Shown here one piece after another: positions 26,289 through 52,530 of a DNA stretch of 64,000 nucleotides; positions within the stretch are counted from its first letter, which is position 1, and every line of letters starts with the position of its first letter. The stretch spans positions 186,001 through 250,000 of the forward strand of contig NZ_PGOI01000009.1 of NCBI RefSeq assembly GCF_002794355.1, read 5' to 3'. This stretch comes from Pseudorhodobacter sp. MZDSW-24AT (GTDB lineage: Bacteria; Pseudomonadota; Alphaproteobacteria; Rhodobacterales; Rhodobacteraceae). The translations under genes were made by a program, and so were the position numbers. The notes below the pieces were generated by a model. That model saw only the letters and a list, made by a program, of their open reading frames with translations. It was not told the origin of the DNA and searched no databases.

Positions 26289-26291
26289 GGC

Positions 26292-27338: not shown

Positions 27339-27384
27339 GCGCTTGCGGGGCAGGGGCGTTGCGGCTAGCACTTGGCAAGGCAAG

Positions 27385-27396: not shown

Positions 27397-27413
27397 CCGG
27401 GCGGAGGGCTGCG

Positions 27414-28151: not shown

Positions 28152-28190
28152 GCGCGCACCGCGCGGAAGGCTTGACAGGCGGCGGCAGAC

Positions 28191-28222
28191 TTGTCAGACA
28201 GGTTTGCAAAGATGTCGGACGC
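28191..28222. promoter_or_regulatory. Paired TGTC-N-GACA operators before the family-5 ABC operon
   Basis: TTGTC-A-GACAGG (28191-28202) is a perfect TGTC/GACA palindrome; ATGTC-G-GACGC (28211-28222) is a close copy whose centre is 21 bases away, two helical turns. A weaker TTGTC-G-GATT follows at 28224. All lie within 80 bases of the first permease start. Confidence 0.5.
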
Positions 28223-28266
28223 ATTGTCGGATTCGCGGCGGGGCGCCCTGTCTGAGGGAGGAAACC

Positions 28267-30164: not shown

Positions 30165-30167
30165 GCG

Positions 30168-31753: not shown

Positions 31754-31770
31754 GACGCGGCCCTCGCGCA

Positions 31771-31806
31771 AACGCCGCGCCCCTTGACCGGGGGCGCGGC
31801 GTTTTT
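31771..31806 (+). terminator. Intrinsic terminator of the family-5 ABC operon
   Basis: A 13-bp perfect stem (31771-31783 with 31791-31803, AACGCCGCGCCCC against its complement), 7-base loop, and T-run ending the stem. Lies 18 bases after the last ATPase stop. Confidence 0.88.
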
Positions 31807-31835
31807 CTGTCCGGCAATGGGCAGGGCGCATGGCA

Positions 31836-31861
31836 AAACGGGCGCATCTTGCGATGCGCCC
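31836..31861 (-). terminator. Intrinsic terminator of the binding-protein gene
   Basis: On the minus strand GGGCGCATC, GCAA tetraloop, GATGCGCCC, then GTTTTGCC; 28 bases after the stop of the binding-protein gene. It faces the terminator of the convergent ABC operon, so the two units are insulated. Confidence 0.75.
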
Positions 31862-31888
31862 GCTGCCCGTGAGTCGGCTGAGGGAGGA

Positions 31889-37766: not shown

Positions 37767-37842
37767 GGGCCGGTAGCTCAGTTGGTAGAGCAGCTGACTT
37801 TTAATCAGCGGGTCACAGGTTCGAATCCTGTCCGGCTCACCA
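37767..37842 (+). tRNA. tRNA-Lys (anticodon TTT)
   Basis: Complete cloverleaf read by eye: 7-bp acceptor stem (GGGCCGG with CCGGCTC, one G-T pair), D arm with AGCTCAGTTGGTAGAGC, anticodon stem CTGAC/ATCAG around loop TTTTAA-type with TTT anticodon, T loop GGTTCGAATCC and encoded CCA end. It lies divergent from dapF. Confidence 0.97.
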
Positions 37843-38154: not shown

Positions 38155-39462
38155 CTAGAGCCCCGGCAACCAGAGCGCCAGCGGCGGGAAGACGATCAGC
38201 GTTGCCACCAACAGCAGCGTGCAGCCGATATAGGGCAAGGCTGCCATGTAGATGTCGCGCATCGTGGTGTCTGGCGGGGCGACCCCTTTCATCACGAACA
38301 AGAGCAGCCCGAACGGCGGCGAGGTGAAGCCGATCTCTAGCCCCAAGAGCACGATCAGCGCGAACCAGACCGGATCGAAGCCCAAGGAGGCCGCCAGCGG
38401 AAAGAAGACTGGCACGGTCAGCAGCATCATGGAAATCTGCTCCATGAACATCCCCAAGACCAGCAGCACCGCGAACATGGCCAGCAGCATCACGATGGGG
38501 GCAAGGTCGAAACTGGTGGCCCATTCGATCAGGCCACCCGAGGCCCCGGAAAATGCCAGAATCTGGCTGAAGGTGGCCGAGCCGAACACGATCAGATAGG
38601 CCATCAGGGTGACTTTCAGCGCCCCCACAACGGATTTGCGGATGGCCTCCCATGTCAGGCAGCGGAAGGCCGCGGCAACAAGGATGGCGCCCAAGGCCCC
38701 GAAGGCGGCGGCCTCGGACGGGGTGGCGATGCCAAACAGCATCATCAGCACGATCAAGGCCATCACGCCGACCAAGGGCACGACATCCAGCAGGATCAGA
38801 CGCAGCTTTTCGCCCAGCGGTGTGGGTTCCACATCATAGGCGGGGGCGGCGTTGGGGTCGATCCGGGTCTGGATCCAGATGGTCGCGATGTAGAAACAGG
38901 CGAGCAGCAGACCGGGAATCACCCCCGCCATCAGAAGCGAGGAGATATCGACCTTTGCCATGGTGGCCAGAAGCACCGCCAAGGCCGAAGGCGGAATGAT
39001 GATCGCAAGCCCGCCGGTGCCAAGGATAGGCCCGATCGACATGTGTTTCTTGTAGCCGCGCTTGTTCATCTCGGGCACCAGAAGCGAGCCAAGGAGCGCT
39101 GTGGCGCCCATCGAAGACCCTGACATGGTGGCAAAGCCGGTGCCGCCCAGCACGGTGACATAGCTCAGCCGCCCCGGAATGCGGCCGAGCAGACGGTCGA
39201 TCGCATTGAACATCCGCGCGCCAAGGCCGGTGTGAAAGAAGATTTCGCCCATGAGCAGGAACAGCGGGATGGGCACCAAGGCATAGGAGGTCAGCGCGCC
39301 AAGGCCATTGTTCAGCATCTGGGTGACGCCACGCTCGCCCCCCATGAACACCCACGCGCCAAGGATATTGGCGGCGATGAAGGCCAGCGCCACCGGCATC
39401 CCGATCGCCATGAGAAACAGGATGGCGCCCAGCAAAAGGGCCAGAGATTCATACCACATCAT
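38155..39462 (-). CDS. dctM: TRAP transporter large permease subunit
   Basis: 435 residues, about twelve hydrophobic segments; GGTGFATMSGSSMGATALLGSLLVPEM and FGIATPSEAAAFGALGAI are DctM signatures. Drives Na+-dependent uptake of an organic acid together with DctQ and DctP. Overlaps dctQ by four bases. Last gene of the leftward operon of the hydantoinase-type regulon. Confidence 0.92.
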   Translation of the reverse strand: MMWYESLALLLGAILFLMAIGMPVALAFIAANILGAWVFMGGERGVTQMLNNGLGALTSYALVPIPLFLLMGEIFFHTGLGARMFNAIDRLLGRIPGRLSYVTVLGGTGFATMSGSSMGATALLGSLLVPEMNKRGYKKHMSIGPILGTGGLAIIIPPSALAVLLATMAKVDISSLLMAGVIPGLLLACFYIATIWIQTRIDPNAAPAYDVEPTPLGEKLRLILLDVVPLVGVMALIVLMMLFGIATPSEAAAFGALGAILVAAAFRCLTWEAIRKSVVGALKVTLMAYLIVFGSATFSQILAFSGASGGLIEWATSFDLAPIVMLLAMFAVLLVLGMFMEQISMMLLTVPVFFPLAASLGFDPVWFALIVLLGLEIGFTSPPFGLLLFVMKGVAPPDTTMRDIYMAALPYIGCTLLLVATLIVFPPLALWLPGL

Positions 39463-39965
39463 TCGTGTATACCTGCCTCGCCCGTGTGCATGACCTCACG
39501 CCCGAACACAAAGCGGGCGAATTCCACTGTCATCAGGCCGAAACTCAAAGGGAATGCGATCGTCAGGAGCCAGCGGGGGAAATAGTAGGAGCGCACGTCG
39601 AAATCGCCGCGCGCCAGATTGGTCTGGACAAGCTGATAGCCCTTCCAGCCCAGATAGAGACAGATCAGCGCGCAGGCGGCCGCGACGACGCGGCTGAGGA
39701 GGATGCGGGCAGGGGCGGGCAGGGCGGCGGTGACCAGTTCGATGTGCACATGGCCGCGTTGCCGCACCAGCCAAGGCGCGCCCAGCATGGTGATGTAGAG
39801 CATGGCATATTCCGTCGAGGTGAACAGCCACGCAAAGGGCTGAACGCCGAAATTGCGCATGGCGACGGAGAGCGTCACCGCGACCATCAGCCAGACCAGC
39901 AGGATCGCCGCCGTCAGCGCCATGGCATCGACCAATCGGTCATAAAGTTTCGTGATTGCCTGCAT
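39459..39965 (-). CDS. dctQ: TRAP transporter small permease subunit
   Basis: 168 residues, four membrane segments, with QPFAWLFTSTEYAMLYITMLGAPWLVRQRGHVHIEL, the DctQ core. ATG at 39965 with AGGGCG upstream; a GTG six codons earlier (39983) is possible. Follows dctP across a hairpin. Confidence 0.88.
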   Translation of the reverse strand: MQAITKLYDRLVDAMALTAAILLVWLMVAVTLSVAMRNFGVQPFAWLFTSTEYAMLYITMLGAPWLVRQRGHVHIELVTAALPAPARILLSRVVAAACALICLYLGWKGYQLVQTNLARGDFDVRSYYFPRWLLTIAFPLSFGLMTVEFARFVFGREVMHTGEAGIHE

Positions 39966-39987
39966 CTGTCGCCCTTCTTTCACGGCA

Positions 39988-40020
39988 GGAAAACCGGCGG
40001 CACCCCCGTGGGCGCCGCCG
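39988..40020 (-). terminator. Hairpin with T-run between dctP and dctQM (attenuator)
   Basis: On the minus strand CGGCGGC pairs with GCCGCCG across a 12-base loop, followed by GGTTTTCC. It sits between receptor and permease genes, where partial termination keeps the receptor in excess. Confidence 0.55.
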
Positions 40021-40028
40021 TGAAAGCG

Positions 40029-41042
40029 TTACTCTGCAGCGGTTTGGGCGTAGAACTTCTCGATCAGCGCGTCGTAATTGGTGAGGCCCGCCGGGTGCTG
40101 TTCCATCTGTTCGCGCATCCGCTTGAAGGTCTCGTCGCGGGCGGCGGCCAGATAGCGGGCGGCGGCTTCGTCGCCAAGGGTGACGGCAGTCATGCCGCCG
40201 GCTTCAAGGCGGGCGAATTCGTCATCCCGCCGTGCGGTCTGGGCCGCGACACTGGCGGCTTCGTGGGCGATGGCCTGTTCGGTCAGAATGCGTTTCGAGT
40301 CTTCTGACAGGCTGTTCCACTTTTCCAGATTCACGATCACGCCGATGTCGGTGGAGAAGAACGAAGGTTCGACGCGGTATTTGACGAATTCGTTCCACTT
40401 CAGGTCGATCAGGCCGATCTGGGTCCAGCCGGTGGCATCCACCACGCCCTTTTCCAGCGCGCCATAGACTTCACCGGTGGGCAGGTCGATCACCTGTGCG
40501 CCGAGGTAGTTGGTGAAAAAGGCGTTGTAGACGGCGTTGCCGCGCAGCTTGACGCTCGACAGGTCCAGATCGCCATTGTCCTTGAACTTTGGCTCATTGG
40601 CCATCCACAGGTTGTAGGACACGCCGCTGTCGAACCAGCCGAGGTATTTCACCCCCATCTTTTCCTGATGAATGGCATCGATCAGATCGATCCCGCCATT
40701 CGCCCGTGCCTCGACAGCGGTGATGTTCGAGCCGACCAGCGCATCCTTTTCCGGCAAGGACCCGGCGTAGAAGCTGCCCGGCGTGTGGACCATGTCAACG
40801 ATGCCGTCGCGCACCGCATCGGGTTGCTGCGGGGTGGGGATCGCCTCGGGGCCGCCACGAACCTCGATCTCGACCACGCCTTTGCCGGCCTCGTTCACCT
40901 TGGCGACAAAATCGAGAAAGCTTTGGGTGTAGATCAGGTTGGGGGAAAAGGCATGCACGGCCGTCAGCTTGTCTTGCGCCATGGCCGTTGTGGCCAAAAG
41001 CAGGCTTGCAAGGCTCAGTCCGGTCAGGTTCAGCAGTTTCAT
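40029..41042 (-). CDS. dctP: TRAP transporter solute-binding protein
   Basis: 337 residues, signal peptide in the first 22 (LTGLSLASLLLATTAMAQ). LRGNAVYNAFFTNYLGAQVIDLPTGEVYGALEKGVVDATGW contains the conserved Arg that binds a carboxylate in nearly all DctP proteins. PQQPDAVRDGIVDMVHT is also typical. The ligand is therefore an organic acid, identity unknown. Sits 63 bases after leuD in the same direction. Confidence 0.9.
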   Translation of the reverse strand: MKLLNLTGLSLASLLLATTAMAQDKLTAVHAFSPNLIYTQSFLDFVAKVNEAGKGVVEIEVRGGPEAIPTPQQPDAVRDGIVDMVHTPGSFYAGSLPEKDALVGSNITAVEARANGGIDLIDAIHQEKMGVKYLGWFDSGVSYNLWMANEPKFKDNGDLDLSSVKLRGNAVYNAFFTNYLGAQVIDLPTGEVYGALEKGVVDATGWTQIGLIDLKWNEFVKYRVEPSFFSTDIGVIVNLEKWNSLSEDSKRILTEQAIAHEAASVAAQTARRDDEFARLEAGGMTAVTLGDEAAARYLAAARDETFKRMREQMEQHPAGLTNYDALIEKFYAQTAAE

Positions 41043-41105
41043 CGTTATCTCCCTGTTGATATGGGGTTGATCCCCGGTTTGTCCTGCGCCGCCTGCGGGG
41101 CGGTG

Positions 41106-41705
41106 TCAGTCTTTGGGCCAGACCCAAGGGGCATGGGCCCGTCTGCGGCTGGCAAAGGCGGTGATGGCTGCGGCATGCGATGCCGTCAGGTCGATGTCGT
41201 CCCAGCCGTTGATCAGCTTTTGTCGCCAGACCGGGTCCAGCGCAAAGGCGATGCTGTCCGGCCCAGATGTGATGGTCTGCGTGGCCAGATCGACGGTCAT
41301 CTGGGCCGGACAGGCCGCAAGCAGGCGGTCGGCCTGATCTTCGGTGACGCGGGCGGGCAGCAGGCCGTTGTTGACGGCATTGGCCGCAAAGATATCGCCA
41401 AAGCTGGGGGCGATCACCACGCGGAACCCGGCATCCTGCAGCGCATAGACCGCCGCCTCCCGCGAGGAGCCGCCTCCGAAATTGCGCCGGGCGATCAGGA
41501 TGCTGGCGTCCTGCGCTTCGGCTTGGTTCAAGGCAAAGTCGGGGCGCAGCACATCCCCGTCGCGGCGCAGATCATGCAGCAGGAAGCGGCCATAGCCTTC
41601 CTCACGCGGGGCCGACATGAAGCGCGCCGGGATCAGCTGGTCGGTGTCGATGTTTTCCAGCGGCAAGGCGACGGCGCGCCCGTGATGGGTGGTCCAGCCG
41701 GTCAT
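41106..41705 (-). CDS. leuD: Aconitase-family hydro-lyase, small subunit (LeuD-like)
   Basis: 199 residues. ENIDTDQLIPARFM and NFGGGSSREAAVYALQDAGFRVVIAPSFGDIF are the swivel-domain motifs of isopropylmalate isomerase. ATGA overlap with the large-subunit gene. The setting (GntR regulator, TRAP importer, hydantoinase genes, no leuA or leuB) argues for a catabolic paralogue acting on a substituted malate or maleate, such as citramalate or dimethylmaleate. Confidence 0.85.
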   Translation of the reverse strand: MTGWTTHHGRAVALPLENIDTDQLIPARFMSAPREEGYGRFLLHDLRRDGDVLRPDFALNQAEAQDASILIARRNFGGGSSREAAVYALQDAGFRVVIAPSFGDIFAANAVNNGLLPARVTEDQADRLLAACPAQMTVDLATQTITSGPDSIAFALDPVWRQKLINGWDDIDLTASHAAAITAFASRRRAHAPWVWPKD

Positions 41706-43087
41706 GCGCGTCCCTCCAGCAAGGGGCGCACATCTGTGAGATGGCCGGTGACAGCGGCGGCGGCCACCATGGCGGGCGACATCAGATGTGTGCGCGCGCC
41801 GGGGCCTTGGCGGCCACGGAAATTGCGGTTGGTCGAAGAGGCGCAGCGCTGACCGGGCGCGACCAGATCGCCATTCATGCCCACACACATCGAGCAGCCC
41901 GACCCCACCCAATCCAGCCCTGCGGCCTTGAAGATCTGGTCCAGCCCCTCGGCCTCGGCCTGTGCCTTGACCAGAGCCGAACCGGGCGAGACCATTCCCG
42001 GCACCTTTGCCTGCCGTCCGGCCAGAACGGCGGCGGCGGCCCGCAGATCTTCGATCCGGGCATTGGTGCAGGAGCCGATGAAGACCTGATCCACCGCCAC
42101 GCTGTCGAGCGGGCGACCCGCTGTCAGGCCCATGTAGTCGAGCGCGGCGGCAATGCGGCTGGCGCGCGCCGGATCGGACTCGCGGGCGGGATCGGGCAAG
42201 GTGGCGGTGATCGGCAAGGCCTCTTCGGGGCTGGTGCCCCATGTCACGATGGGGGCGACCTCGGCCATGTCCAGCGTCACTTCGCGGTCAAAGGCGACGT
42301 CGGGGTCCGAGGCCAGTCTGGCCCAATCCGCACAGGCCGCGTCGAAATCGGCAGGGGCAAAGGCCCGCCCGCGCAGCCAGTCGAAGGTGGTCTGATCGGG
42401 GGCGACCAGCCCGGTGCGGGCACCGCCTTCGATCGAGAGGTTGCACAGCGTCAGCCGCCCGGCAACCGACAGCGCGCGCACGGCGGGCCCGGCATATTCC
42501 ACCGCGTGGCCGCGTGCGCCATCGGCCCCCAACCGGGCGATCCAGGCAAGCGCCATGTCCTTGGCCCCGATTCCCGGACCCGCGACACCGGTAAAGGTGA
42601 TGCGCATCCGCGCCGGTTTGCGCTGCCAGATCGTCTGGGTTGCCAGCACATGCGCCACTTCGGTGGCGCCGATGCCGAAACCATAGGCTCCCAGCGCCCC
42701 ATGGGTCGCGGTGTGGCTGTCACCACAGACCACGAGCATTCCGGGCAGGGTCAGCCCTTGTTCCGGCCCCATCACATGAACGATGCCTTGCGCCGGATGA
42801 CCCAGCCCGAAAAGGCGGATGCCATGCGCGGAGGTGTTTTCATCCAAGGTCCGCACCATGCGGGCGATCGCCGGGTCTGCCACCGGTCCGCGCGTTGGCA
42901 CATAGTGATCGGCCACGCCCACGGTCAGGCGCGGCTCTGCCACCGCCATGCCGCGCGCCGCCAGCGTGCGAAAGCCGTGATGGGAGCCTTCGTGCAGATA
43001 GTGCCGGTCCACCCACAGAAGGGCGGCTCCATCCTCGCGGGTCAGGATGACGTGATCGTCCCAAAGCTTGTCGAAGAGCGCCTTCAT
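41702..43087 (-). CDS. leuC: Aconitase-family hydro-lyase, large subunit (LeuC-like)
   Basis: 461 residues from the ATG overlapping the gntR stop. GDSHTATHGALGAYGFGIG, first cluster cysteine in FIGSCTNARIEDL and the pair in GSGCSMCVGMN bind the 4Fe-4S cluster. Sequence is close to standard LeuC, so true isopropylmalate isomerase cannot be excluded, but the operon is catabolic. With LeuD it would hydrate or isomerise a C-C double bond in a dicarboxylate. Confidence 0.87.
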   Translation of the reverse strand: MKALFDKLWDDHVILTREDGAALLWVDRHYLHEGSHHGFRTLAARGMAVAEPRLTVGVADHYVPTRGPVADPAIARMVRTLDENTSAHGIRLFGLGHPAQGIVHVMGPEQGLTLPGMLVVCGDSHTATHGALGAYGFGIGATEVAHVLATQTIWQRKPARMRITFTGVAGPGIGAKDMALAWIARLGADGARGHAVEYAGPAVRALSVAGRLTLCNLSIEGGARTGLVAPDQTTFDWLRGRAFAPADFDAACADWARLASDPDVAFDREVTLDMAEVAPIVTWGTSPEEALPITATLPDPARESDPARASRIAAALDYMGLTAGRPLDSVAVDQVFIGSCTNARIEDLRAAAAVLAGRQAKVPGMVSPGSALVKAQAEAEGLDQIFKAAGLDWVGSGCSMCVGMNGDLVAPGQRCASSTNRNFRGRQGPGARTHLMSPAMVAAAAVTGHLTDVRPLLEGRA

Positions 43088-43908
43088 TCCGCCGCCCCCG
43101 GTGCCGGGTCTGGTCCCAGGTCCGTCAGGGGCACCAGCACGGGCTCCCATTGCCGGGCGCCTGCGTTGCCCACGCGGTTCAGCGTCATGTCCAGCCGGAA
43201 CCGGTCAGGGCGGTAGAGCGCGGCCAGATGTTCCACGCCGCGCCCGGAGGCATCAAAGACCACGCGGGTCAGCGAGATCAGCGCCGCGCCCACCGACACA
43301 TCCAGCGCTTCGGCCACGTCGGGGGTGGCAAGGCTGGCCGAGATGGACTGGCTGGCATGGTCAACCTGAATGCCCGCGCGTTCCAGCAGGCGGAACAGCG
43401 GTGTCGCGGCCAGATCGGTTTCCGAGAAATTCTGGGCGATGTCTTCGGGCACATGGGTGGTGAGATGCGAGAAGGGCGCGTCGTCCATCTTGCGCACCCG
43501 CACCGCGCGCTGCACGCGCCCGCCTTCGGGCAGACGCAAGGCCTCGGCCACAAGCGGGGGGGCCGGGACATAGGCATAGGCGAGCAGCCGCGCGGTCGTC
43601 TGCTGGCCCATCCGCACCAGTTGCGGCATCAGCGTGGCGAAATCGGCGGCAATCGCGGCGCGCTGGGACGAGGCGTCGGTCACGCGGGTGCCCGATCCGG
43701 GCCGCCGCTCGATCAGGCCTTCCTGTGCCAGCGCGTCCAGCGCGCGGCGGATGGTGACGCGGCTGACGCCATGCTGTTCGGCCAGCCGCATCTCACCCGG
43801 GAGCAGGGTGCCGCCCGCCAATTCGCCCCGCGTGATCTCGTCGCGCATCAGCAGATAAACCCGCTGCGCCTTGCTGCCTTCTGTGGATATCCGCGCTGCC
43901 TGCACCAT
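43084..43908 (-). CDS. GntR/HutC-family regulator with UTRA domain
   Basis: 274 residues. Winged helix ending in GVSRVTIRRALDALAQEGLIERRPGSGTRV, then a UTRA effector domain (PFSHLTTHVPEDIAQNF, VEHLAALYRPDRFRLDM). The ATG at 43908 follows AGGTCACC; a frame extension to 43956 is possible. Divergent from the tautomerase-hydantoinase operon and cotranslated with leuC, so it most likely controls both arms. Confidence 0.86.
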   Translation of the reverse strand: MVQAARISTEGSKAQRVYLLMRDEITRGELAGGTLLPGEMRLAEQHGVSRVTIRRALDALAQEGLIERRPGSGTRVTDASSQRAAIAADFATLMPQLVRMGQQTTARLLAYAYVPAPPLVAEALRLPEGGRVQRAVRVRKMDDAPFSHLTTHVPEDIAQNFSETDLAATPLFRLLERAGIQVDHASQSISASLATPDVAEALDVSVGAALISLTRVVFDASGRGVEHLAALYRPDRFRLDMTLNRVGNAGARQWEPVLVPLTDLGPDPAPGAAE

Positions 43909-43930
43909 GGTGACCTGCCCTTTCGAGTCA

Positions 43931-43943
43931 GGGATGTTATCCC
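43931..43943. promoter_or_regulatory. Palindrome GGGAT-GTT-ATCCC in the divergent promoter
   Basis: Perfect 5+3+5 palindrome, 23 bases upstream of the GntR/HutC start and about 110 bases from the tautomerase gene. Possible operator for this regulator; the match to a known HutC consensus is not strong. Confidence 0.3.
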
Positions 43944-44054
43944 CGGTCTGAAACAAAGCAACTAAAATGTCTGGTTCTCGCGCAATTAAATGTATTGTGC
44001 GGTTTGCAAAAGCAGTATTAAAAAAGATACAGGTTGAACTGCCGGAGTCGTGCC

Positions 44055-44615
44055 ATGCCCATTGTCACAGTGCAGATCCTTGAAGGCTACGAAGGGGCGG
44101 TCAAAACCCGTCTGGGCCGTGCCGTGACCGATGCGGTGCGGTCGGTCGTGGCGGCGCCGCCAGAGGCGGTGACGGTGATTCTGGCGGAAATGCCTGCCGA
44201 AAACTATCTGCGCGGCGGCACGCATCGGGCGCCCGCGCCGCCTGTGGCCGACGCCGCGCAGGTGGTGCGCAGCTTTCTGACGGCGATGGAAGCGCGGGAT
44301 CTGGCCGCGGCCCGCGACCACTTGGCGCCGGGTTTTGCCATGACCTTTCCGGGCGGGGTCCGCATGACCACGCTGGACGCGCTGATCGACTGGGCCCGGC
44401 CGCGCTACCGCTTTGTGAAAAAGACATATGAAAGGTTCGATGCCTTGGGGTCGTTGGTCTATTGCTTTGGCACGCTGCACGGGGAATGGCCCGATGGCAC
44501 GGCCTTTTCCGGTATCCGTTTCATCGACCGGTTCGAATTGGAAGACGGGCGTCTGCTGCGGCAGGACGTCTGGAATGATATTGCCGAGGTTCAGGCCCGT
44601 GGAGGTGCGCAATGA
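44055..44615 (+). CDS. 4-oxalocrotonate tautomerase domain fused to a SnoaL-like domain
   Basis: 186 residues. MPIVTVQILEG at the N-terminus exposes the catalytic Pro1 of the tautomerase superfamily after Met removal, but the substrate-binding Arg11 and Arg39 of 4-OT are Tyr and Thr here. Residues about 75-180 form a second, NTF2/SnoaL-like domain (VVRSFLTAMEARDLAAARDHLAPGF, FIDRFELEDGRL). Such fusions are uncommon. The ATG at 44055 is fixed by the Pro-1 logic. First gene of the rightward operon; its end overlaps hyuB (ATGA). Confidence 0.78.
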   Translation: MPIVTVQILEGYEGAVKTRLGRAVTDAVRSVVAAPPEAVTVILAEMPAENYLRGGTHRAPAPPVADAAQVVRSFLTAMEARDLAAARDHLAPGFAMTFPGGVRMTTLDALIDWARPRYRFVKKTYERFDALGSLVYCFGTLHGEWPDGTAFSGIRFIDRFELEDGRLLRQDVWNDIAEVQARGGAQ

Positions 44616-46297
44616 TTGATCCGATCACCCTTGCCGTGCTGGCTGGCCGCATGGAGCAGATTGCCGACGAGATGGATGCGACGCTGTTTCGTTCGGCCTT
44701 CAACCCGATCATCGCCGAGGCGCATGATGCCAGCCACGGTCTTTACCACGCGACGACCGGCGACACACTGGTGCAGGGCAAATCCGGCCTGCCGATTTTC
44801 GTGGGGGTGATGGCCTTTGCCGTCAAGGCGGTGATCGACAAGGCCGCGCGCGACGGAGACCTTGCCGAAGGCGATGTCTATATCTTCAACGATGCGCATA
44901 TCGGCGGCACCCATCTGTCGGACATGCGGCTGGTGCGGCCCTATTTCCATCAAGGGCAATTGTTCTGTTATCTGGCCTCGGTCGGCCATTGGCATGACAT
45001 GGGCGGCGCCGTGCCGGGCAATTACAATCCGCGCGCCACCGAGGTGTTCCAAGAGGCGTTCGTGCTGCCTCCGGTCAAGGTGATGCGGGCGGGGGTGGTG
45101 CAGCAGGATGTGATCGACATCATCCTGCGCAACACCCGCTTGCCCGCCTCGGCGCAAGGCGACTTGAACGGGCAGCTGAGCGCGCTGGATCTGGGCGTGC
45201 GGCGGATGGACGGGCTTTTGGCGGAATATGGCGGCGCCACGGTGCGCGCGGCGCTGGATGCGCTGTCGGACCGCGCCGAGGCGCTGATCCGGGCCGAGGT
45301 CGCGGCACTGCCCGATGGGCGCTGGGAGGCGACCGATTATCTGGACAATGACGGCATCACCGATGTCGCCTTGCCGATCACGGTGGCGCTGACGGTGGCG
45401 GGCGACCGTCTGACGCTGGATTTCACCGGGACGGCGGGGGCCACGGCGGGGCCGGTGAACATCTCGAAGGGCACCGCGATTGCGGCTGTTTATGTGGCGA
45501 TCAAGCATATCTTTCCGGGTTTGCCCGCCAATGCCGGCGTGATGCGCCCGCTTGACATCGTGGTGCCCGAGCGGAGCCTGCTGGCGGCGGAATTCCCCGC
45601 GCCGACGGGCGGTTATACCGAGACGATCCTGCGGATGATCGATGTGATCTTCGCGGCCATGGCGCAGGCGGCTCCCGATCTGGTGGTGGCCAATGCCTAT
45701 GGCACCATCAACGCGCTGTCCTTGGCGGGCTATCGCCGCGACGGGCGGCGGTGGGTGATGTTTTCCTTCTACGGCGGCGGGCATGGCGGCAGCCTTGCGG
45801 GCGACGGGCTGAATCATGGCAATGCGCCGATCTCGACCGCGACGATCCCGCCGGTGGAGATTCTTGAATCCGCCTATCCGGTGATGTTCCGGCAATGGGC
45901 GTTGCGGCCGGACAGTGGGGGCGCGGGCACCCAGCGCGGGGGCCTCGGCGCGGTCTATGAGATTGAACTGCTGGAAGACAGCGCCGAGGTCTTTCTGTTC
46001 GGCGAACGCGGCCGCCATGCGCCCAAAGGGGCGGCGGGGGGCGGCGACGCGGCCTTGAACCGGTTCAGCTATTCGCAAGGCGATGACTGGGCGACGCCTG
46101 CCATGGTGTCCAAGGGCACCGGCATGCGCTTGGCGCGGGGCGATGCGGTGCGTCTGGAGACACCGGGCGGCGGCGGCTATGGCCCGGCAAGCGCGCGCGA
46201 TCCGGCGGCGGTGGCGCGCGACGTGGCCCTTGGTTTGGTGACGGAACAGGCGGCAGACGCGGCCTATGGCACAGCATGGCGGGAGAGCGTGGCATGA
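44612..46297 (+). CDS. hyuB: Hydantoinase B / oxoprolinase-family subunit
   Basis: 561 residues. Family members act with HyuA on cyclic amides (hydantoins, 5-oxoproline) or ketones in ATP-dependent hydrolysis or carboxylation. AHDASHGLYH-type sequence, FNDAHIGGTHLSDM and GHWHDMGG carry the conserved His/Asp of the B subunit; GGYTETILRMIDVIFAAMAQ follows. Coupled at both ends by ATGA overlaps. Substrate unknown. Confidence 0.9.
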   Translation: MIDPITLAVLAGRMEQIADEMDATLFRSAFNPIIAEAHDASHGLYHATTGDTLVQGKSGLPIFVGVMAFAVKAVIDKAARDGDLAEGDVYIFNDAHIGGTHLSDMRLVRPYFHQGQLFCYLASVGHWHDMGGAVPGNYNPRATEVFQEAFVLPPVKVMRAGVVQQDVIDIILRNTRLPASAQGDLNGQLSALDLGVRRMDGLLAEYGGATVRAALDALSDRAEALIRAEVAALPDGRWEATDYLDNDGITDVALPITVALTVAGDRLTLDFTGTAGATAGPVNISKGTAIAAVYVAIKHIFPGLPANAGVMRPLDIVVPERSLLAAEFPAPTGGYTETILRMIDVIFAAMAQAAPDLVVANAYGTINALSLAGYRRDGRRWVMFSFYGGGHGGSLAGDGLNHGNAPISTATIPPVEILESAYPVMFRQWALRPDSGGAGTQRGGLGAVYEIELLEDSAEVFLFGERGRHAPKGAAGGGDAALNRFSYSQGDDWATPAMVSKGTGMRLARGDAVRLETPGGGGYGPASARDPAAVARDVALGLVTEQAADAAYGTAWRESVA

Positions 46298-48360
46298 GCG
46301 GCACTACTTTGATCGGCGTTGATGTCGGCGGCACCTTCACCGACATCTTTGTTCTGGATGCGGCAACGGGCCGGGCCGAGGTGGCCAAGGTCCCCACCTC
46401 GCGTCCCGATCAGTCGGCGGGGTTCCTTGCAGGGATCGCGCAGCGGGTTTCGGATCTGGGCACGGTGGCGACCGTGGTTCACGGCACGACGGCAGGCACC
46501 AATGCGCTGCTGGAGCGCAAGGGCGCGCGCATCGGCATCATCACCACGGCGGGGTTCCGCGACGTGCTGGAGATGCGCCGCCGCGACCGGCCCCGGACAT
46601 GGGGGCTGCGCGGCGATTTCACCCCGGTGGTGTCGCGCGATCTGCGGCTGGAGGTGGCAGAGCGCACCTTGGCCGATGGCACGGTGCACACGCCGGTAGA
46701 CCTGAACGCCGTGCGCGCGGCAGGGCAAGCCTTGCTGGATCAAGGCTGTCTGGCGGTGGCGGTGCTGTTCGTCAACGCCTATGCCAACCCGGCCAATGAA
46801 CAGGCGGCGGTGGCCGCGCTGCGCGAGATCTGGCCCAATCCGCATGTGGCCTCGTCTTCAGAGATCCTGCCCGAAATCCGCGAGTTTGAACGCTTTTCCA
46901 CCACGGCGCTGAACGCCTATCTGCAACCCGAGGTGGCGGGCTACCTGAGCCGGCTGGAACAGGCGCTGAAGAGCAAGGGCTTTGGCGGCGAGTTCCTGAT
47001 CGTGCAGTCGAACGGCGGTGTGATGGCGGTCGAGACCGCCTGCCGCCTGCCCGTGCGCACCGCGCTGTCGGGACCGGCGGCGGGGGTGATCGCGGCGGCC
47101 TATATCGCACAGACCGCCGGTTTCCCCGATATCATCACCGGCGACATGGGGGGCACCTCGTTTGACGTTGCGCTGATCGCGGGCGGACAGGCGGCGCTGG
47201 CCGCACAAACGGCGGTGGACTTTGGCATGGTCGTGCGGGTGCCGATGATCGAGATCACCACGATCGGCGCGGGCGGCGGCTCTATCGCTTGGGTGGACAA
47301 GGGCGGGCTGTTGAACATCGGGCCGGAATCCGCAGGCTCTGACCCCGGCCCGGTGGCTTATGCGCGCGGCAACACGCGGCCGACGGTGACGGATGCCAAT
47401 ATCGTGCTGGGCCGGATCGACCCCGACCGCCCCATCGGCGGTGGGCGGCTGGATGTGGCCGCCGCGCGGGCGGCGATTGATGCCCATGTGGGCGGGCCGC
47501 TGGGCCTTGGCACCGAAGAGGCCGCCGAGGCGATCATCCGGGTTGCCAATTCCCGCATGGCCGGGGCGATCCGGCTGGTCAGCATTGAACGCGGCCATGA
47601 TCCGAAGCATTTCGCCTTCATGCCCTTTGGCGGGGGCGGCGCCTTGCACGCAGGCGCGATGCTGGCCGAAGTGGGCCTGTCGCGCGCCATCGTGCCGCGC
47701 TATCCCGGCGTCACCTCGGCCATGGGCTGCGTGATTGCCGACATGCGGGCCGATTTCGTGCAGACGGTCAACCAGCCGACCGCCGCCGCCGATGGCGCGG
47801 CGCTGGCCGCGCTGATCGAAGATCATCTGGCCGAGGGGCAGGGGATGCTGGCCGCCAGTGGCGGGGCCTTTGCCGCGCGGGTGGTCACGGTTGAACTGGA
47901 CATGGCCTATGTTGGCCAGACCCATACGGTGTCTGTCCCCTTGCCGGTGACGATCCTGGCGCAGGACAAGGTGACACCGCCGACGCCAGACGCCATCACG
48001 GCGGCTTTCGAGGCGGCCTATCAGCGGGTCTTTGGCCGACTTTTGCCCGGCGGTGTCAGCCGCATCCTGAACCTGCGGACCGCCGTGATCGGGCAGCGGC
48101 CCAAGTTTGATCTGGCGACGCTGGCCCCCACGACCAGCGGTCCGGTGGTGCCTCGGGCCACGCGGCGGGTCCATCTGGGCGGGGCATGGTGCGACGCCGC
48201 CATTCATGACCGTCTGGCCTTGCCGGTGGGCACGGTGATCCGGGGGCCTGCGGTGCTGGAGCAGCCCGACACGACCATTCTTGTGGAACCGGGCCTGATC
48301 GGCACGGTAGACAGTTATGGCAATGTGATCCTGACACGGGAGGACGGCGATGACACTTGA
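46294..48360 (+). CDS. hyuA: Hydantoinase A / oxoprolinase-family subunit
   Basis: 688 residues. Two actin-like ATP-binding motifs: GVDVGGTFTDIFVLD at the N-terminus and ITGDMGGTSFDVALI in the second lobe, and FMPFGGGGALHAGAMLAE near residue 450. The ATG at 46294 overlaps the hyuB stop. Works with HyuB as an ATP-dependent amidohydrolase-type enzyme. Confidence 0.92.
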   Translation: MSGTTLIGVDVGGTFTDIFVLDAATGRAEVAKVPTSRPDQSAGFLAGIAQRVSDLGTVATVVHGTTAGTNALLERKGARIGIITTAGFRDVLEMRRRDRPRTWGLRGDFTPVVSRDLRLEVAERTLADGTVHTPVDLNAVRAAGQALLDQGCLAVAVLFVNAYANPANEQAAVAALREIWPNPHVASSSEILPEIREFERFSTTALNAYLQPEVAGYLSRLEQALKSKGFGGEFLIVQSNGGVMAVETACRLPVRTALSGPAAGVIAAAYIAQTAGFPDIITGDMGGTSFDVALIAGGQAALAAQTAVDFGMVVRVPMIEITTIGAGGGSIAWVDKGGLLNIGPESAGSDPGPVAYARGNTRPTVTDANIVLGRIDPDRPIGGGRLDVAAARAAIDAHVGGPLGLGTEEAAEAIIRVANSRMAGAIRLVSIERGHDPKHFAFMPFGGGGALHAGAMLAEVGLSRAIVPRYPGVTSAMGCVIADMRADFVQTVNQPTAAADGAALAALIEDHLAEGQGMLAASGGAFAARVVTVELDMAYVGQTHTVSVPLPVTILAQDKVTPPTPDAITAAFEAAYQRVFGRLLPGGVSRILNLRTAVIGQRPKFDLATLAPTTSGPVVPRATRRVHLGGAWCDAAIHDRLALPVGTVIRGPAVLEQPDTTILVEPGLIGTVDSYGNVILTREDGDDT

Positions 48361-48955
48361 TCCTTGCAAGACCGCATTGCTGACCATCGATCTGCAAAAC
48401 GACTTCCTGCACCCCGAGGGCGCCTATGGCCGTGCCGGGCAAACGGCGCCCGCCATCACCGCCTTGCCCGCCCGGATCGCGCCGGTGCGCGATGCGCTGC
48501 GGGCGGCGGGGGGCGTGTTCGTCTCGGCGCAGTTCACCTTGGTGCCGGGGCCGGATGGGCCGTTGATCGCCCCGCATCTGGCCAAGCTGCGCCCGTTTCT
48601 GACGACGGGCGACTTTGCCCCCGGTGGCTTTGGCCATGATCTGGTCGACAGTCTGAAGCCCGCAGATTTCACGGTGGAAAAGGTGGCCTATTCGGCCCTA
48701 TACCAGACCCGGCTGGAGTATATTCTGCGCCATCTGGGGATCGATACGCTGATCGTGGGCGGCATTGTCACCAATGGCGGCGTTGCCTCGACGCTGCGCG
48801 ATGCGCATCTGCGGGGCCTGCACACGATTGTGCTGACCGATGGCTGCGCCGCGTTCCGGGACGACGTGCATGACGCCACTTTGTTGTCTTTGGCTTCAGT
48901 CACCGAGCAGATGACCTGCGCCGAGGCTGTTGCTGTTTTGAAAGGTGCCGCATGA
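48350..48955 (+). CDS. Isochorismatase-fold hydrolase lacking the catalytic cysteine
   Basis: 201 residues. Asp14 in LTIDLQNDFL and Lys111 in VEKVAYSALYQT match the fold, but the site of the nucleophile, VTN-x-Cys-V in amidases and nicotinamidases, reads VTNGGVAST (Gly144). Gly at this place is known from true isochorismatases (EntB, PhzD), which hydrolyse vinyl ethers. So cysteine-based amidase activity is unlikely. Overlaps hyuA by 11 bases with GGGAGGAC upstream, and overlaps the lyase gene by four. Confidence 0.85.
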   Translation: MTLDPCKTALLTIDLQNDFLHPEGAYGRAGQTAPAITALPARIAPVRDALRAAGGVFVSAQFTLVPGPDGPLIAPHLAKLRPFLTTGDFAPGGFGHDLVDSLKPADFTVEKVAYSALYQTRLEYILRHLGIDTLIVGGIVTNGGVASTLRDAHLRGLHTIVLTDGCAAFRDDVHDATLLSLASVTEQMTCAEAVAVLKGAA

Positions 48956-49818
48956 CGCTGAAATCCCGCCTTGCAGAGCCGCAGATCCTGATTGCGCCCG
49001 GCGTTTATGATGGTCTGACCGCTGCGATTGCCGCCGATGCCGGGTTCGAGGCGCTGTATCTGTCTGGCGCCGCCGTGGCCTATACCCGGCTGGGGCGGCC
49101 TGACATCGGGCTGACCACCATGTCGGAAATGGCCGACACCATGGCGCTGATCCGCGACCGGGTGGCGCTGCCTGTCATCATCGATGCCGACACCGGCTTT
49201 GGCAATGCGCTGAACGCGCAGCGCACCATGCGCGCTTATGAGCGCGCGGGGGCCAGCGCTTTGCAGATCGAGGATCAGACCTATCCCAAGCGCTGCGGGC
49301 ATCTGGCGGACAAGTCGCTGATTTCGACCGCCGAGATGGTGGGCAAAATCGCCGCCATGGCAGAGGCGCGCGCAAGCGAGCAGACATTGATCATCGCGCG
49401 TACCGATGCGATTGCGGTGGAAGGGTTCGCAGCGGCCATCGACCGCGCGGGCGCCTATCTGGACGCGGGCGCGGATGCCTTGTTCATCGAGGCGCCGCGC
49501 ACGGGCGACGAGCTGGCGCAGGTGGCCCGCACCTTCCGGGACCGCGGGCCCTTGATGGCCAATATGGTGGAGGGGGGCGCGACCCCGATTCAGTCGGCGG
49601 CTGATTTGCAGGCGCTGGGCTTCCGTCTGGTAATCTTCCCCGGCGGGATCGTGCGCGCGCTGGCGCGGACGGCGGGGGATTATTACGCCAGCCTGAAGGC
49701 CCATGGGTCGAACACGCCTTTTGCCAATCGGATGTATGATTTCGACGGGCTGAATGACCGGATCGGCACGGCCGAGATGCTGGCCTTGGGCGGACGGTTC
49801 GACGGGACAGTGAAATGA
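48952..49818 (+). CDS. Isocitrate lyase/PEP mutase-family C-C lyase
   Basis: 288 residues. SGAAVAYTRLGRPD (39-51), DADTGFGN (78-85, Mg site) and KRCGH (113-117, catalytic Cys) identify the lyase branch that includes 2-methylisocitrate lyase, 2,3-dimethylmalate lyase and oxaloacetase. Expected to split a substituted malate or citrate to pyruvate or oxalate plus a short acid. ATGA overlaps on both sides. Which substrate is used cannot be told by eye. Confidence 0.88.
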   Translation: MTLKSRLAEPQILIAPGVYDGLTAAIAADAGFEALYLSGAAVAYTRLGRPDIGLTTMSEMADTMALIRDRVALPVIIDADTGFGNALNAQRTMRAYERAGASALQIEDQTYPKRCGHLADKSLISTAEMVGKIAAMAEARASEQTLIIARTDAIAVEGFAAAIDRAGAYLDAGADALFIEAPRTGDELAQVARTFRDRGPLMANMVEGGATPIQSAADLQALGFRLVIFPGGIVRALARTAGDYYASLKAHGSNTPFANRMYDFDGLNDRIGTAEMLALGGRFDGTVK

Positions 49819-51197
49819 TCCTGCCGCCCGTGGCGCATGAGGCGCAGGTGCAAACGCTGATCGTGGGGGGCGGGGCCTGTGGGCTGATCGCGGCGCTCGC
49901 GGCGCATGAGGCGGGGCAAGAGGTGCTGGTGCTGGAGCGGGACGCGGTGCCCTCTGGGTCCACGGCCCTGTCGGCGGGGCTGATCCCGGCGGCAGGCACG
50001 CGCTGGCAAGCGGCAGAAGGCATCGCCGACAGCCCCGCGCAATTCGCCGCCGACATCGCGGCCAAGGCGCATCACGAAAATGATCCCGCGCTGGAGCGCG
50101 CCCTGACCGAAGGCGCGGCCGAGGCGCTGCATTGGCTGGCCGATCGGCATGGGTTGGACCTGTCCGTTGTCACGGATTTCACCTATCCCGGCCATTCGGC
50201 GCGCCGGATGCACGGCTTGCCCAGCCGCTCGGGCCGCGCGCTTGTCGATGCGCTGCGGGCGGCGACCGAAGCAAAGGGCATCGACATTCTGACCGAGGCG
50301 CAGGTCACCGCGCTCCATGCCGAAGGCGGGCTGGTGACGGGCGTGCAGATCACCCGGCCCGATGGCAGCACCGACAGCCTTGGCTGCGCGCGGCTGATCC
50401 TTGCCTGCAACGGCTTTGGCGGGAACAAGGCGATGGTGGCGCAGCACATGCCAGCCATCGCCGAGGCGCTGTATTTCGGCCATCCCGGCAATCAGGGCGA
50501 GGCGATGATCTGGGGCGCGGCGCTGGGGGCGGCGGTGCGCCATCCGGGGGCCTATCAGGGCCATGGCAATGTGGCGCATCCGCATGGCATCCTGATCAGC
50601 TGGGCCACGATCATGGAGGGGGGCTGTCAGGTCAACCTGCGGGGCGAACGGTTCTGGAATGAGGCGCAAGGCTATTCCGAGGCGGCGCAGGCGGTGCTGG
50701 CCCAGCCCGAGGGGCAGGCTTGGGCGATCTTCGACGCCCGTATCGCCGCCATCGCGGGCCAGTTTCAGGATTTCCGCGATGCCGAGGCGCAAGGGGCCGT
50801 CAAGACCGCCGCAACGGTCGCGGCGCTGGCAGAGGTGACGGGTCTGCCGCCCGAGCCGCTGGCCGAGACGCTGACGCGCTTTGCCGCGGCAAAGGCGGGC
50901 GCGCCCGATGCGTTTGGCCGGGATCTGCGCGGCGTCCCTGCCTTGACGCCCCCCTATGCCGCGGTGCGGGTGACGGGTGCGCTGTTTCACACGCAGGGCG
51001 GTCTGGTGACCGACGGGCAGGGCCGGGTGCTGACAGCGGCGGGCGTGCCCTTGGGCAACCTCTGGGCCGGGGGCGGTGCCGCCTGTGGCGTGTCGGGGTC
51101 GGGCGATGCGGGCTATCTGTCGGGCAACGGCCTTTTGGCGGCTGTCGTGCTTGGCTTTCGCGCGGGGCGGGCCGACGCCCCGGCGGCGGCATCCTGA
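49815..51197 (+). CDS. FAD-dependent dehydrogenase (fumarate reductase flavoprotein family)
   Basis: 460 residues. FAD dinucleotide motif LIVGGGACGLIAALAAHEAG at residues 15-34, LVLERDAVPSGSTALSAGLIPAAG, and the C-terminal NLWAGGGAACGVSGSGDAGYLSGNGLLAA that closes the FAD site. Related to TcuA-type tricarballylate dehydrogenase and succinate dehydrogenase flavoproteins; it may desaturate or reduce an organic acid of the pathway. Last gene of the coupled chain. Confidence 0.86.
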   Translation: MILPPVAHEAQVQTLIVGGGACGLIAALAAHEAGQEVLVLERDAVPSGSTALSAGLIPAAGTRWQAAEGIADSPAQFAADIAAKAHHENDPALERALTEGAAEALHWLADRHGLDLSVVTDFTYPGHSARRMHGLPSRSGRALVDALRAATEAKGIDILTEAQVTALHAEGGLVTGVQITRPDGSTDSLGCARLILACNGFGGNKAMVAQHMPAIAEALYFGHPGNQGEAMIWGAALGAAVRHPGAYQGHGNVAHPHGILISWATIMEGGCQVNLRGERFWNEAQGYSEAAQAVLAQPEGQAWAIFDARIAAIAGQFQDFRDAEAQGAVKTAATVAALAEVTGLPPEPLAETLTRFAAAKAGAPDAFGRDLRGVPALTPPYAAVRVTGALFHTQGGLVTDGQGRVLTAAGVPLGNLWAGGGAACGVSGSGDAGYLSGNGLLAAVVLGFRAGRADAPAAAS

Positions 51198-51251: not shown

Positions 51252-52487
51252 TTAAAGCTCCAGCAGACGGTCGCCCGTGGCATCCTTGATGCGGGTGGGC
51301 AGGCCGATCTGGTTCAGCAGATTGATGAAGGGCGCGGGGTCAAGCTCTTCGACATTGGCCATGGTGCCCACATCCCAGACGCCATCGGCGATCAGCAGCG
51401 CGGCGGCCACCGGCGGCACACCGGCGGTATAGCTGATGCCTTGGCTGCCCACCTCGTTATAGGCGTCCTTGTGATCGGCGACGTTGTAGATCAGCACCTC
51501 GACCGGCTGGCCGTCCTTGGTGCCTTTGACGAAATCGCCGATGCAGGTCTTGCCGGTGTAGTTCGGGGCAAGGCTGGCCGGGTCGGGCAAAACGGCCTTG
51601 ACGACCTTCAGCGGCACCACTTCCAAACCTTCGGCGGTTTTCACCGGCTGTTCCGACAACAGGCCAAGGTTTTTCAGCACGGTGAAGACGTTGATGTAAT
51701 GGTCGCCAAAGCCCATCCAGAAGCGCACATCGGCCTGCGGATAGCGGGCAGACAGCGAATGCACCTCGTCATGGCCGGTCAGATAGGCCTTTTGTTCGCC
51801 CACCACCGGCATGTCCCATGTCTTGCCAACCTCGAACATGCTGTTGGTCTGCCAAGCGCCGTTCTGCCACGAATAAACCGTGCCGGTGAATTCGCGGAAG
51901 TTGATCTCGGGGTCGAAGTTGGTGGAGAACCATTTGCCATGCGACCCGGCGTTGATGTCAACGATGTCGATCGACTCGATGCTGTCCATCAGGCCTTCGG
52001 CCACGCGGGCATAGGCGTTGACCACGCCCGGGTCAAAGCCCACGCCCAGAATGGCGGTAACGCCCGCCGCCTTGCACGCCTCGCGCCGTTTCCATTCGTA
52101 ATTGCCATACCACGGCGGGGTTTCGCAGATCTTGGCCGGGTCTTCGTGAATGGCGGTGTCCATATAGGCCACCCCCGCCTGAATGCAGGCGTCCAGAACC
52201 GGCATGTTGACGAAAGGCGAGCCCACGTTGATCACGATCTGGCAGCCGGTGGCCTTGATCAGCGCCACCACGGCGGCGGTATCGGTGGCGTCGAGCGCAT
52301 GGGCGGCAAACACGCCCGGCACCTTCATCGCCGACTTCTCCTGCACCGAGGCGATGATCGCTTCGGCCTTGGCCACCGTGCGGCTGGCGATGTGCAGATC
52401 GCCCAAGCGGTCATTGTGCTGGGCGGCCTTGTGCGCCACCACTTGGGCCACGCCACCAGCGCCGATGATCAGAACATTCCGTTTCAC
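51252..52487 (-). CDS. Carboxyspermidine dehydrogenase (saccharopine dehydrogenase family)
   Basis: Condenses putrescine (or diaminopropane) with aspartate semialdehyde to carboxy(nor)spermidine using NADPH, the first step of the SAM-independent spermidine route. 411 residues; NVLIIGAGGVAQVVAHKAA at the N-terminus, DTAIHEDPAKICETPPWYGNYEW and GFDPGVVNAYA are characteristic. GTG start with AAGGAG upstream. Follows the decarboxylase gene by 43 bases. Confidence 0.9.
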   Translation of the reverse strand: MKRNVLIIGAGGVAQVVAHKAAQHNDRLGDLHIASRTVAKAEAIIASVQEKSAMKVPGVFAAHALDATDTAAVVALIKATGCQIVINVGSPFVNMPVLDACIQAGVAYMDTAIHEDPAKICETPPWYGNYEWKRREACKAAGVTAILGVGFDPGVVNAYARVAEGLMDSIESIDIVDINAGSHGKWFSTNFDPEINFREFTGTVYSWQNGAWQTNSMFEVGKTWDMPVVGEQKAYLTGHDEVHSLSARYPQADVRFWMGFGDHYINVFTVLKNLGLLSEQPVKTAEGLEVVPLKVVKAVLPDPASLAPNYTGKTCIGDFVKGTKDGQPVEVLIYNVADHKDAYNEVGSQGISYTAGVPPVAAALLIADGVWDVGTMANVEELDPAPFINLLNQIGLPTRIKDATGDRLLEL

Positions 52488-52530
52488 TTCGAACCGTCTC
52501 CTTTAAGGACAGAGGGAAGGGGCAACCTGA

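Follow-up and report, generated by a model that had tools for sequence, protein, structure and literature searches.

Which compound is degraded by a gene cluster that joins an importer, an ATP-dependent ring opener, a hydratase and a carbon–carbon lyase? The question is raised by a 64,000-nucleotide stretch of DNA from Pseudorhodobacter sp. MZDSW-24AT (the window), which is part of contig C26 of a 3.86-Mb genome. Twelve genes at window positions 38155-51197 form two divergent strings on either side of a 146-bp gap. An earlier note, made from the DNA alone, had named and placed these genes, and all of its identities and positions were borne out by open reading frames and family searches. The cluster is tentatively read here as a local regulon for the breakdown of a cyclic imide acid taken up from outside, an answer towards which we lean without quite counting it the probable one.

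In the proposed pathway, a TRAP importer encoded by dctP (40029..41042), dctQ (39459..39983) and dctM (38155..39462), all on the minus strand, would bring in the cyclic imide compound. HyuAB (hyuB, 44612..46297; hyuA, 46294..48360; plus strand) would then open the imide ring at the expense of ATP, and an isochorismatase-fold protein (48350..48955, plus strand) would release ammonia from the resulting half-amide without a catalytic Cys, perhaps via the neighbouring carboxylate of a maleamate. A flavin adenine dinucleotide (FAD) dehydrogenase (49815..51197, plus strand) and a tautomerase-SnoaL fusion protein (44055..44615, plus strand) may raise a precursor that is saturated, or that carries a misplaced double bond, to the maleate or maleimide level. 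The LeuCD-like hydratase (leuD, 41106..41705; leuC, 41702..43087; minus strand) would convert the substituted maleate to a substituted malate, which a PrpB-like lyase (48952..49818, plus strand) would split into a 2-oxo acid of the pyruvate type and a carboxylic acid. The GntR regulator (43084..43908, minus strand) would keep both strings repressed until a pathway compound is present.

Conservation of the gene set

Many Rhodobacteraceae and some of their relatives carry this set, and its genes travel together. All twelve were found at 46 of 55 loci from named genomes and at 16 of 19 loci of a second set, where the contig reached at least 6.5 kb upstream and at least 6.9 kb downstream of the fusion gene and each gene was matched at 44% identity or more. 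This flank filter was passed by 55 of the 80 named loci, themselves the best 80 of 185 relatives of the fusion protein in a genome-contig scan, and by 19 of 20 in the second set; the two sets (loci L034-L053 and L054-L133) overlap in part. Such co-occurrence rules out chance neighbours, and the conservation in other genomes that had been proposed as a check is thereby confirmed. Among the named loci, the downstream genes were present in 61 to 63 of 63 and the TRAP genes in 55 or 56 of 66. A counter-example to the whole set is L052, in which the fusion gene, GntR and TRAP alone are kept. The fusion protein of Pseudotabrizicola formosa, the nearest named relative among the best 80 of 185, is 82% identical to that of the window.

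In the order sample, 35 of 244 genomes have a full-length fusion of at least 51% identity, the window's genome among them. One at E <1e-60 was found in 12 of 385 genomes of the class, with a weak full-length relative in two more; in the phylum sample the fusion was found in 2 of 398 genomes, both of the same family as the window. Hydratase and lyase genes lie nearby in seven of the 11 other class genomes with a full fusion. Within the cluster, seven junctions between genes show an ATGA overlap, as read from the sequence, and the isochorismatase-fold gene overlaps hyuA by 11 bp. The TRAP genes, the ATGA coupling and the retention of the set across genomes agree with the earlier proposal of a coupled catabolic set with an importer.

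Opening of the ring

HyuA and HyuB belong to the HyuAB/OplA/CapAB family of ATP-dependent cyclic amidases, having the two subunits and the four metal ligands of the B subunit. HyuB residues D39, H101, D104 and H126 align with residues 41, 99, 102 and 124 of 6yra_B, the sites of the CapB mutants. At 483 bits for HyuA (NF050156) and 312 bits for HyuB (NF050157), both subunits fall below the 1000-bit cut-off and outside the caprolactamase equivalog, and the best solved relative of HyuB is an N-methylhydantoinase (7hk5). The hyuA gene has an ATGA start. Mutants described in parts of PMC8453981 indicate that CapB needs all four metal residues, the third of which is given as D101 in the abstract and as D102 in a table.

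The isochorismatase-fold protein (PF00857) retains D14 and K111, and Gly (G144) takes the place of the catalytic Cys in each of the 29 orthologues that were aligned, in the register of a RutB alignment. The cysteine-less fold that had been suspected is thus upheld, and the Asp-Lys-Cys triad of RutB-type amidases is absent. Its predicted model (pLDDT, predicted local distance difference test, 93.9) is nearest to RutB, 3kl2, TrtA and BiuH, with isochorismatase domains (AngB) and maleamate amidase ranking lower; this structure does not tell amide from enol-ether hydrolysis. Dialkylmaleamates are easily hydrolysed through their own carboxylate, so that a Cys nucleophile could be unnecessary.

The type of ring is indicated by three genomes in which the ring opener is exchanged. 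At L225, from another class (G974), the TRAP genes (dctM 73%), leuC (67%), leuD (56%), gntR, lyase, fad and SnoaL genes are kept, and two PuuE-family genes with a Cys-amidase gene stand where HyuAB and the Cys-less isochorismatase stand elsewhere. The same replacement occurs in G425 (L164/L186), beside a HacAB-type hydratase; the motif STSGCVRAT of its amidase contains the Cys. In G250 (L165) there is one PuuE gene with an amidase gene, and fad is not within the retrieved stretch. HyuB relatives lie on other contigs in G425 (43-44%) and in G250 (34% at best). HyuAB and PuuE share a common chemistry, the opening of a cyclic amide, imide or ureide, and the swap in three genomes consequently suggests that the bonds of the ring are of the imide or ureide kind. 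According to passages of PMC9304392 and PMC8478523, the Aspergillus enzyme HxnM is a PuuE-related cyclic imidase that acts with the amidase HxnN, is 64% identical to a Pseudomonas imidase and has HpPgdA (3qbu) as its closest structure.

These exchanges, together with that of the hydratase described below, strengthen the logic of ring opener, hydratase and lyase that the earlier note had proposed. Its substrate class of a cyclic amide, an imide or a branched dicarboxylate is upheld as regards a cyclic ring, and the PuuE swap together with the hydratase and lyase may narrow it to an imide, a step that we take with some hesitation.

PuuE-family and Cys-amidase genes recur together at L225 6093-8667, L186 4235-6775, L232 7964-10484 and L233 7814-10319, a pattern that would suit a portable module for ring opening. 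The surrounding enzymes vary, with a PrpD-like gene in L232 and distant relatives of acyl-CoA dehydrogenase and CoA-transferase in L233. At L056 2795-4853 and L110 71-5664, open reading frames of the PuuE family and SnoaL-like ones stand next to a cluster of the HyuAB type without TRAP genes, and L056 additionally has amidase and PrpD-like genes. The PrpD-like genes, as well as the LysR-like open reading frame and the non-TRAP transporter types mentioned below, were assigned by eye or by similarity.

Hydration and cleavage

Both hydratase subunits score above the NCBIfam leuC and leuD cut-offs (LeuC, of the PRK12466 type: NF009116 694 bits, TIGR00170 584 bits with a cut-off of 560; LeuD: TIGR00171 170 bits). 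A second locus, leuC-leuD-leuB on contig C24 of the same genome, reaches 789 and 255 bits for TIGR00170 and TIGR00171, versus 584 and 170 in the cluster. The cluster pair is therefore not the main 3-isopropylmalate dehydratase of leucine biosynthesis, which stands with leuB, and the suggestion of a non-biosynthetic leuCD, which the absence of any other leuCD from the genome would have overturned, holds.

Nine genomes from other families (G250, G307, G338, G425, G435, G444, G527, G607 and G618) and Hongsoonwoonella (L129) have a HacAB/DmdAB-type hydratase in place of LeuCD, which is retained at L169 and L225. The large subunit of the replacement hydratases is 36-39% identical to the cluster LeuC. 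NCBIfam assigns the pair at L166 to HacA/IPMI and LeuD/DmdB, and the other replacements are 59-77% like it. As the type of hydratase changes while its neighbours stay, the hydration step itself appears to be kept.

The lyase (PF13714) is about equally similar in alignment to PrpB, petal death protein, CPEP mutase and 2,3-dimethylmalate lyase (3fa3). Its 285 bits for TIGR02317 lie below the cut-off of 354, which places it outside PrpB. Aligned to 3fa3, its sequence agrees with the 2,3-dimethylmalate lyase type of the isocitrate-lyase superfamily, with a catalytic Cys in a KRCGH motif; K-x-CGH is found at 97% or more in 72 aligned orthologues, and the R of KRCGH varies. No second such lyase was found in the window's own genome at E<=1e-20. 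At two aligned positions, the enzyme reads F and I-F-P, as does dimethylmalate lyase. These positions, where the glyoxylate-forming isocitrate lyase has W and F-x-T, presumably decide between methyl and hydrogen on the 2-oxo product. Consequently, pyruvate is judged from the sequence to be the likelier 2-oxo product.

A gene of the tartrate/isopropylmalate-dehydrogenase family lies near the cluster at L117 6693-7832 (beside leuD), L190 4782-5855 and L191 11110-12183. Instead of being cleaved, the product of the hydratase could be oxidised by such an enzyme.

Dehydrogenation and isomerization

The FAD enzyme (PF00890) belongs to the fumarate reductase/KstD/TcuA family. In alignment to 1qo8, it has Tyr at both positions of two Arg of flavocytochrome c fumarate reductase and lies outside that group. 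We take these two Arg to be the catalytic R402 and the carboxylate-binding R544 of Shewanella numbering. Plain succinate oxidation is thus less likely, and a better fit is a KstD-like reaction, in which a cyclic carbonyl compound is dehydrogenated at its alpha,beta positions.

The fusion protein (PF01361 and PF12680) has the N-terminal Pro after Met of 4-OT tautomerases, and M1-P2 is invariant in 16 of 16 sequences. Its model matches 9mua/9mup, with 59% identity over the whole length. In G307, G435, G527 and G974, the SnoaL gene lacks the tautomerase domain; a separate tautomerase gene was not sought there.

Products and a possible natural substrate

A clue to the second product comes from eight loci of a Marivita group (L102, L107, L113, L115, L120, L123, L128 and L131), in which genes for glutaryl-CoA dehydrogenase (gcdH) and a CoA-transferase begin 26 bp after fad; the contig of L113 is without the left string. 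The dehydrogenase was identified by PDB matches for L128, and the best NCBIfam match of the CoA-transferase of L107 is succinate-glutarate CoA-transferase, at 541 bits against a cut-off of 750. The cluster-adjacent gcdH was the sole one in the two Marivita isolates and one Marivita metagenome-assembled genome searched. Yoonia vestfoldensis SKA53 has another copy elsewhere, and the window's genome has one, elsewhere. The adjoining of gcdH and CoA-transferase genes to the cluster suggests glutarate as one product of the pathway.

Glutarate and pyruvate together would make the cleaved acid 2-hydroxy-2-methyl-3-(2-carboxyethyl)succinate, as expected from hydrated, ring-opened hematinic acid. The cluster would in that case serve an end-product pathway of tetrapyrroles: imported hematinic or dihydrohematinic acid would be opened by HyuAB, the 2-methyl-3-(2-carboxyethyl)maleate hydrated and cleaved, and the glutarate drained through glutaryl-CoA, so that hematinic acid or its dihydro form would yield pyruvate, glutarate and NH3. 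Hematinic acid or its dihydro form is the candidate substrate that we favour, and the boldest part of the reading; this specific assignment is doubtful. According to passages of PMC7318184, oxidation of chlorophyll is the reported source of hematinic acid and maleimides in senescent leaves and in lake sediments. No chlorophyll- or heme-cleaving genes were recognised beside the clusters when neighbouring open reading frames were looked over by eye, short of a systematic search.

Regulation

The divergent gap contains, directly 5' of the fusion gene, an inverted repeat CTGTAT-N8-ATACAG (44013..44032; CAGTATTAAAAAAGATACAG, consensus CTGTATTA-N4-AATACAG), which is a candidate operator for the GntR/HutC-type (UTRA) regulator (PF00392 and PF07702). 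The regulator had been described as a separate gene between two divergent, ATGA-coupled strings; the divergence and the coupling stand, but gntR heads the left string.

With three mismatches or fewer, the repeat occurred in 62 of 72 intergenic regions versus 2 of 72 shuffled ones, a single shuffle having kept base counts only. The next best spacing (1) was found in 42 of 72 regions, with a mean of 3.35 mismatches versus 1.4 for N8. The 72 regions come from the window and 71 named loci in which gntR and the fusion gene diverge across a gap of 20-400 bases. The whole-genome search took in the window's genome, those of Yoonia (L080) and Marivita (L128), and 12 others picked for an exact cluster site, 15 in all. 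When no more than one mismatch to the 14-base pattern is allowed, the operator stands at the cluster in 13 of the 15 genomes and only there in 10 of those 13, and the cluster site is the only one in the window's own genome; a reversed-pattern control gave 0 sites in the 15 genomes. At L225, gntR lies between operator-like sites that have 1 and 2 mismatches, and the 20-kb stretch holds two further operator-like sites elsewhere, less symmetrical. Ten other variant or related loci that were scanned have none near gntR or, at L172, one with 2 mismatches directly before the fusion gene. Because the operator is rare elsewhere in the genomes searched, GntR probably controls mainly the cluster locus.

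Operator-like sites away from the cluster were seen in four genomes (loci L211 to L215): G638:C15:110853-110872, G636:C35:111909-111928, G629:C1:163293-163312, G629:C12:4678-4697 and G626:C1:2435343-2435362. No member of a wider regulon stood out elsewhere in the 15 genomes, the genes at these five further sites being unread.

Alternative substrates

Several observations weigh against the imide reading. Among the class genomes with a full fusion, two loci (L170 and L183, both at contig ends) hold only part of the set, and around the fusion gene at two others (L171 and L173) the set is absent, save for a 28% isochorismatase match in L173. In G527 (L176/L191), fad stands beside the lyase gene, and neither HyuAB nor PuuE lies within the retrieved stretch. 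The Cys-less fold could carry out vinyl-ether or enamine hydrolysis, which is the chemistry of isochorismatase-type enzymes such as EntB and PhzD, or another non-amide reaction. As for regulation, Marivita geojedonensis (G624) has no operator with at most one mismatch anywhere in its genome, the sole operator-like site of Yoonia SKA53 (G626) lies away from the cluster, and eight scanned variant loci, with HacAB-type or Liv/TRAP-variant clusters, showed no convincing operator. The gcdH link is confined to two lineages, and at two Yoonia loci the gcdH/CoA-transferase pair is on the other side, by the TRAP genes, with a LysR-like open reading frame between. Hematinic acid itself has no need for the FAD enzyme or the tautomerase-SnoaL protein. 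Finally, the PuuE protein of G425 matches PuuE allantoinase at E 1.6e-21 versus 2.9e-9 for HpPgdA (3qbu); being nearer to the allantoinase, it lowers the imide reading and raises its ureide rival.

That main rival, a hydantoin, dihydropyrimidine or other ureide ring, is rather unlikely, yet it has to be taken seriously. HyuAB or PuuE would open the ring, the isochorismatase-fold protein would strip the carbamoyl or amide group, and the remaining enzymes would degrade the carbon skeleton. The N-methylhydantoinase as closest solved relative of HyuB, the resemblance of the isochorismatase fold to RutB, TrtA and BiuH, and the PuuE-family replacements, which score for allantoinase PuuE (far under its cut-off), all agree with it. 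An imide is nevertheless favoured, because an opened imide yields a dicarboxylate usable by the hydratase and the lyase, whereas the amino acid that remains once a ureide has been opened gives no reason for either enzyme, amino acids not being known as substrates of aconitase-family hydratases or isocitrate-lyase-family lyases. The twelve-gene set also has neither a racemase nor an aminotransferase.

A quite improbable alternative is a route like that of nicotinate in Eubacterium barkeri, in which HyuAB would open a pyridine-derived six-membered lactam, the Cys-less fold would hydrolyse an enamine, and the hydratase and lyase would finish the degradation. The pairing of the last two enzymes recalls that of E. 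barkeri, and the D-K-Gly site is as in vinyl-ether-cleaving isochorismatases. In addition, on a plasmid of Sulfitobacter sp. S190, the cluster is followed at a distance of 2 to 3 kb by an operon with molybdenum hydroxylase subunits and a 6-hydroxynicotinate reductase. The reductase is, however, found on that plasmid only among the retrieved stretches (tblastn, E<=1e-15), and the conserved set is without a B12 mutase, an isomerase and a molybdenum hydroxylase.

The conversion of an imported tricarboxylate of the homocitrate or homoaconitate type to glyoxylate and glutarate, with HyuAB as an incidental companion, is very improbable. The gcdH neighbours, the HacAB-type hydratase of the variant clusters and a glycerate 2-kinase-like gene by leuD in L078, with a like open reading frame in L085, would suit such a route. 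However, of the 63 loci with sufficient flank, 62 have HyuA, HyuB and the isochorismatase, which are swapped in others, and the lyase reads F and I-F-P rather than the W and F-x-T of glyoxylate-forming isocitrate lyase. Chance placement of a biosynthetic leuCD beside unrelated catabolic genes can hardly be credited and was rejected, since for all that both subunits exceed the leuC and leuD cut-offs, a higher-scoring leuC-leuD-leuB lies on contig C24 and other families have HacAB-type hydratases where this pair stands, with the neighbours unchanged.

Transporters and genomic surroundings

The permease genes dctM (PF06808, and TIGR00786 above its cut-off) and dctQ (PF04290) share an ATGA overlap. 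The solute-binding protein DctP (PF03480) has 4mnc/4mni as its closest solved chain (E 3.5e-50), and the ligand of 4mnc is presumably benzoylformate. By eye, Liv-type ABC genes were recognised at L129, L164, L169, L172 and L188, a TTT receptor gene inside L168 (a locus of the genome that also holds L188), and, in L078 and L085, Dpp-type ABC genes next to leuD, with TRAP genes of a less closely related type on the other side. The glycerate 2-kinase-like gene next to leuD (L078 6667-7923; like open reading frame, L085 6715-7980) would suit a glyoxylate or hydroxypyruvate product.

On the left, the cluster is flanked by dapF and a tRNA-Lys gene (window 37767-37842, ~310 bp past the end of dctM), and on the right by a carboxynorspermidine-type pair of synthase-like and decarboxylase-like genes on the opposite strand (window 51252-53625). 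The fusion gene is also present on nine Sulfitobacter plasmid records (including L234 and L235), one of which is predicted to be conjugative; the two plasmids that were read carry the same twelve genes, ordered in the same way, and RefSeq names their Cys-less protein a cysteine hydrolase. At L235 (the Sulfitobacter sp. S190 plasmid), positions 23722-32555 hold an AraC gene and then an operon with molybdenum hydroxylase subunits, 6-hydroxynicotinate reductase, UPF0280 and amino acid synthesis family genes; the reductase was absent from every other retrieved stretch at the tblastn threshold given above.

Significance and comparison with known systems

Rhodobacteraceae are common in surface waters, and the cluster represents a conserved, modular pathway of this family whose steps can be read from gene content and whose module swaps make the substrate class testable with few compounds. 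If the substrate were a fragment of chlorophyll or heme, the pathway would show how the degradation of pigments that are very abundant is completed by bacteria; if it were hematinic acid, it would supply the final step that is still missing from the recycling of carbon and nitrogen from chlorophyll. It would also give roles to two oddities, the isochorismatase-fold hydrolase without a nucleophile and the 4-OT-SnoaL fusion. The enzyme families are already known, as are structures of the tautomerase-SnoaL protein (PDB entries from 2025). The literature searched, which covers few subscription journals, yielded no description of the gene set or of a bacterial hematinic acid pathway, nor an article on 9mua/9mup or a pathway for the fusion.

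The nicotinate fermentation of E. barkeri employs 2,3-dimethylmaleate hydratase and 2,3-dimethylmalate lyase. Like it, the cluster has an aconitase-family hydratase followed by an isocitrate-lyase-family lyase, and the small subunit at L166 falls in the LeuD/DmdB family. Unlike it, the cluster adds an importer, an ATP-dependent ring opener, the FAD dehydrogenase and the tautomerase-SnoaL protein, and is without the mutase, isomerase and molybdenum hydroxylase. The HxnM/HxnN system of Aspergillus nidulans resembles the proposed route in imide opening followed by amide hydrolysis, and HxnM is related to PuuE, as are the enzymes of the swap variants; in passages of PMC9304392, however, its substrate is the six-membered 3-hydroxyglutarimide, its end product is hydroxyglutarate and no hydratase or lyase is mentioned, and the window has HyuAB instead.

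Two-part, ATP-dependent lactam opening with four conserved metal ligands is shared with the caprolactamase CapAB, as presented in parts of PMC8453981, and with N-methylhydantoinase (7hk5), although the cluster HyuAB lies far under the equivalog cut-offs of CapAB and its operon is different. The 4-OT-SnoaL protein of P. atlanticus (PDB 9mua/9mup) is a fusion of the same kind, at 59% identity. In contrast to the methylcitrate cycle, the twelve-gene set is without PrpC and PrpD, and its lyase scores under the PrpB cut-off; like that cycle, the pathway would proceed by hydration to an acid resembling a 2-alkyl-isocitrate and then by cleavage to pyruvate and a second acid.

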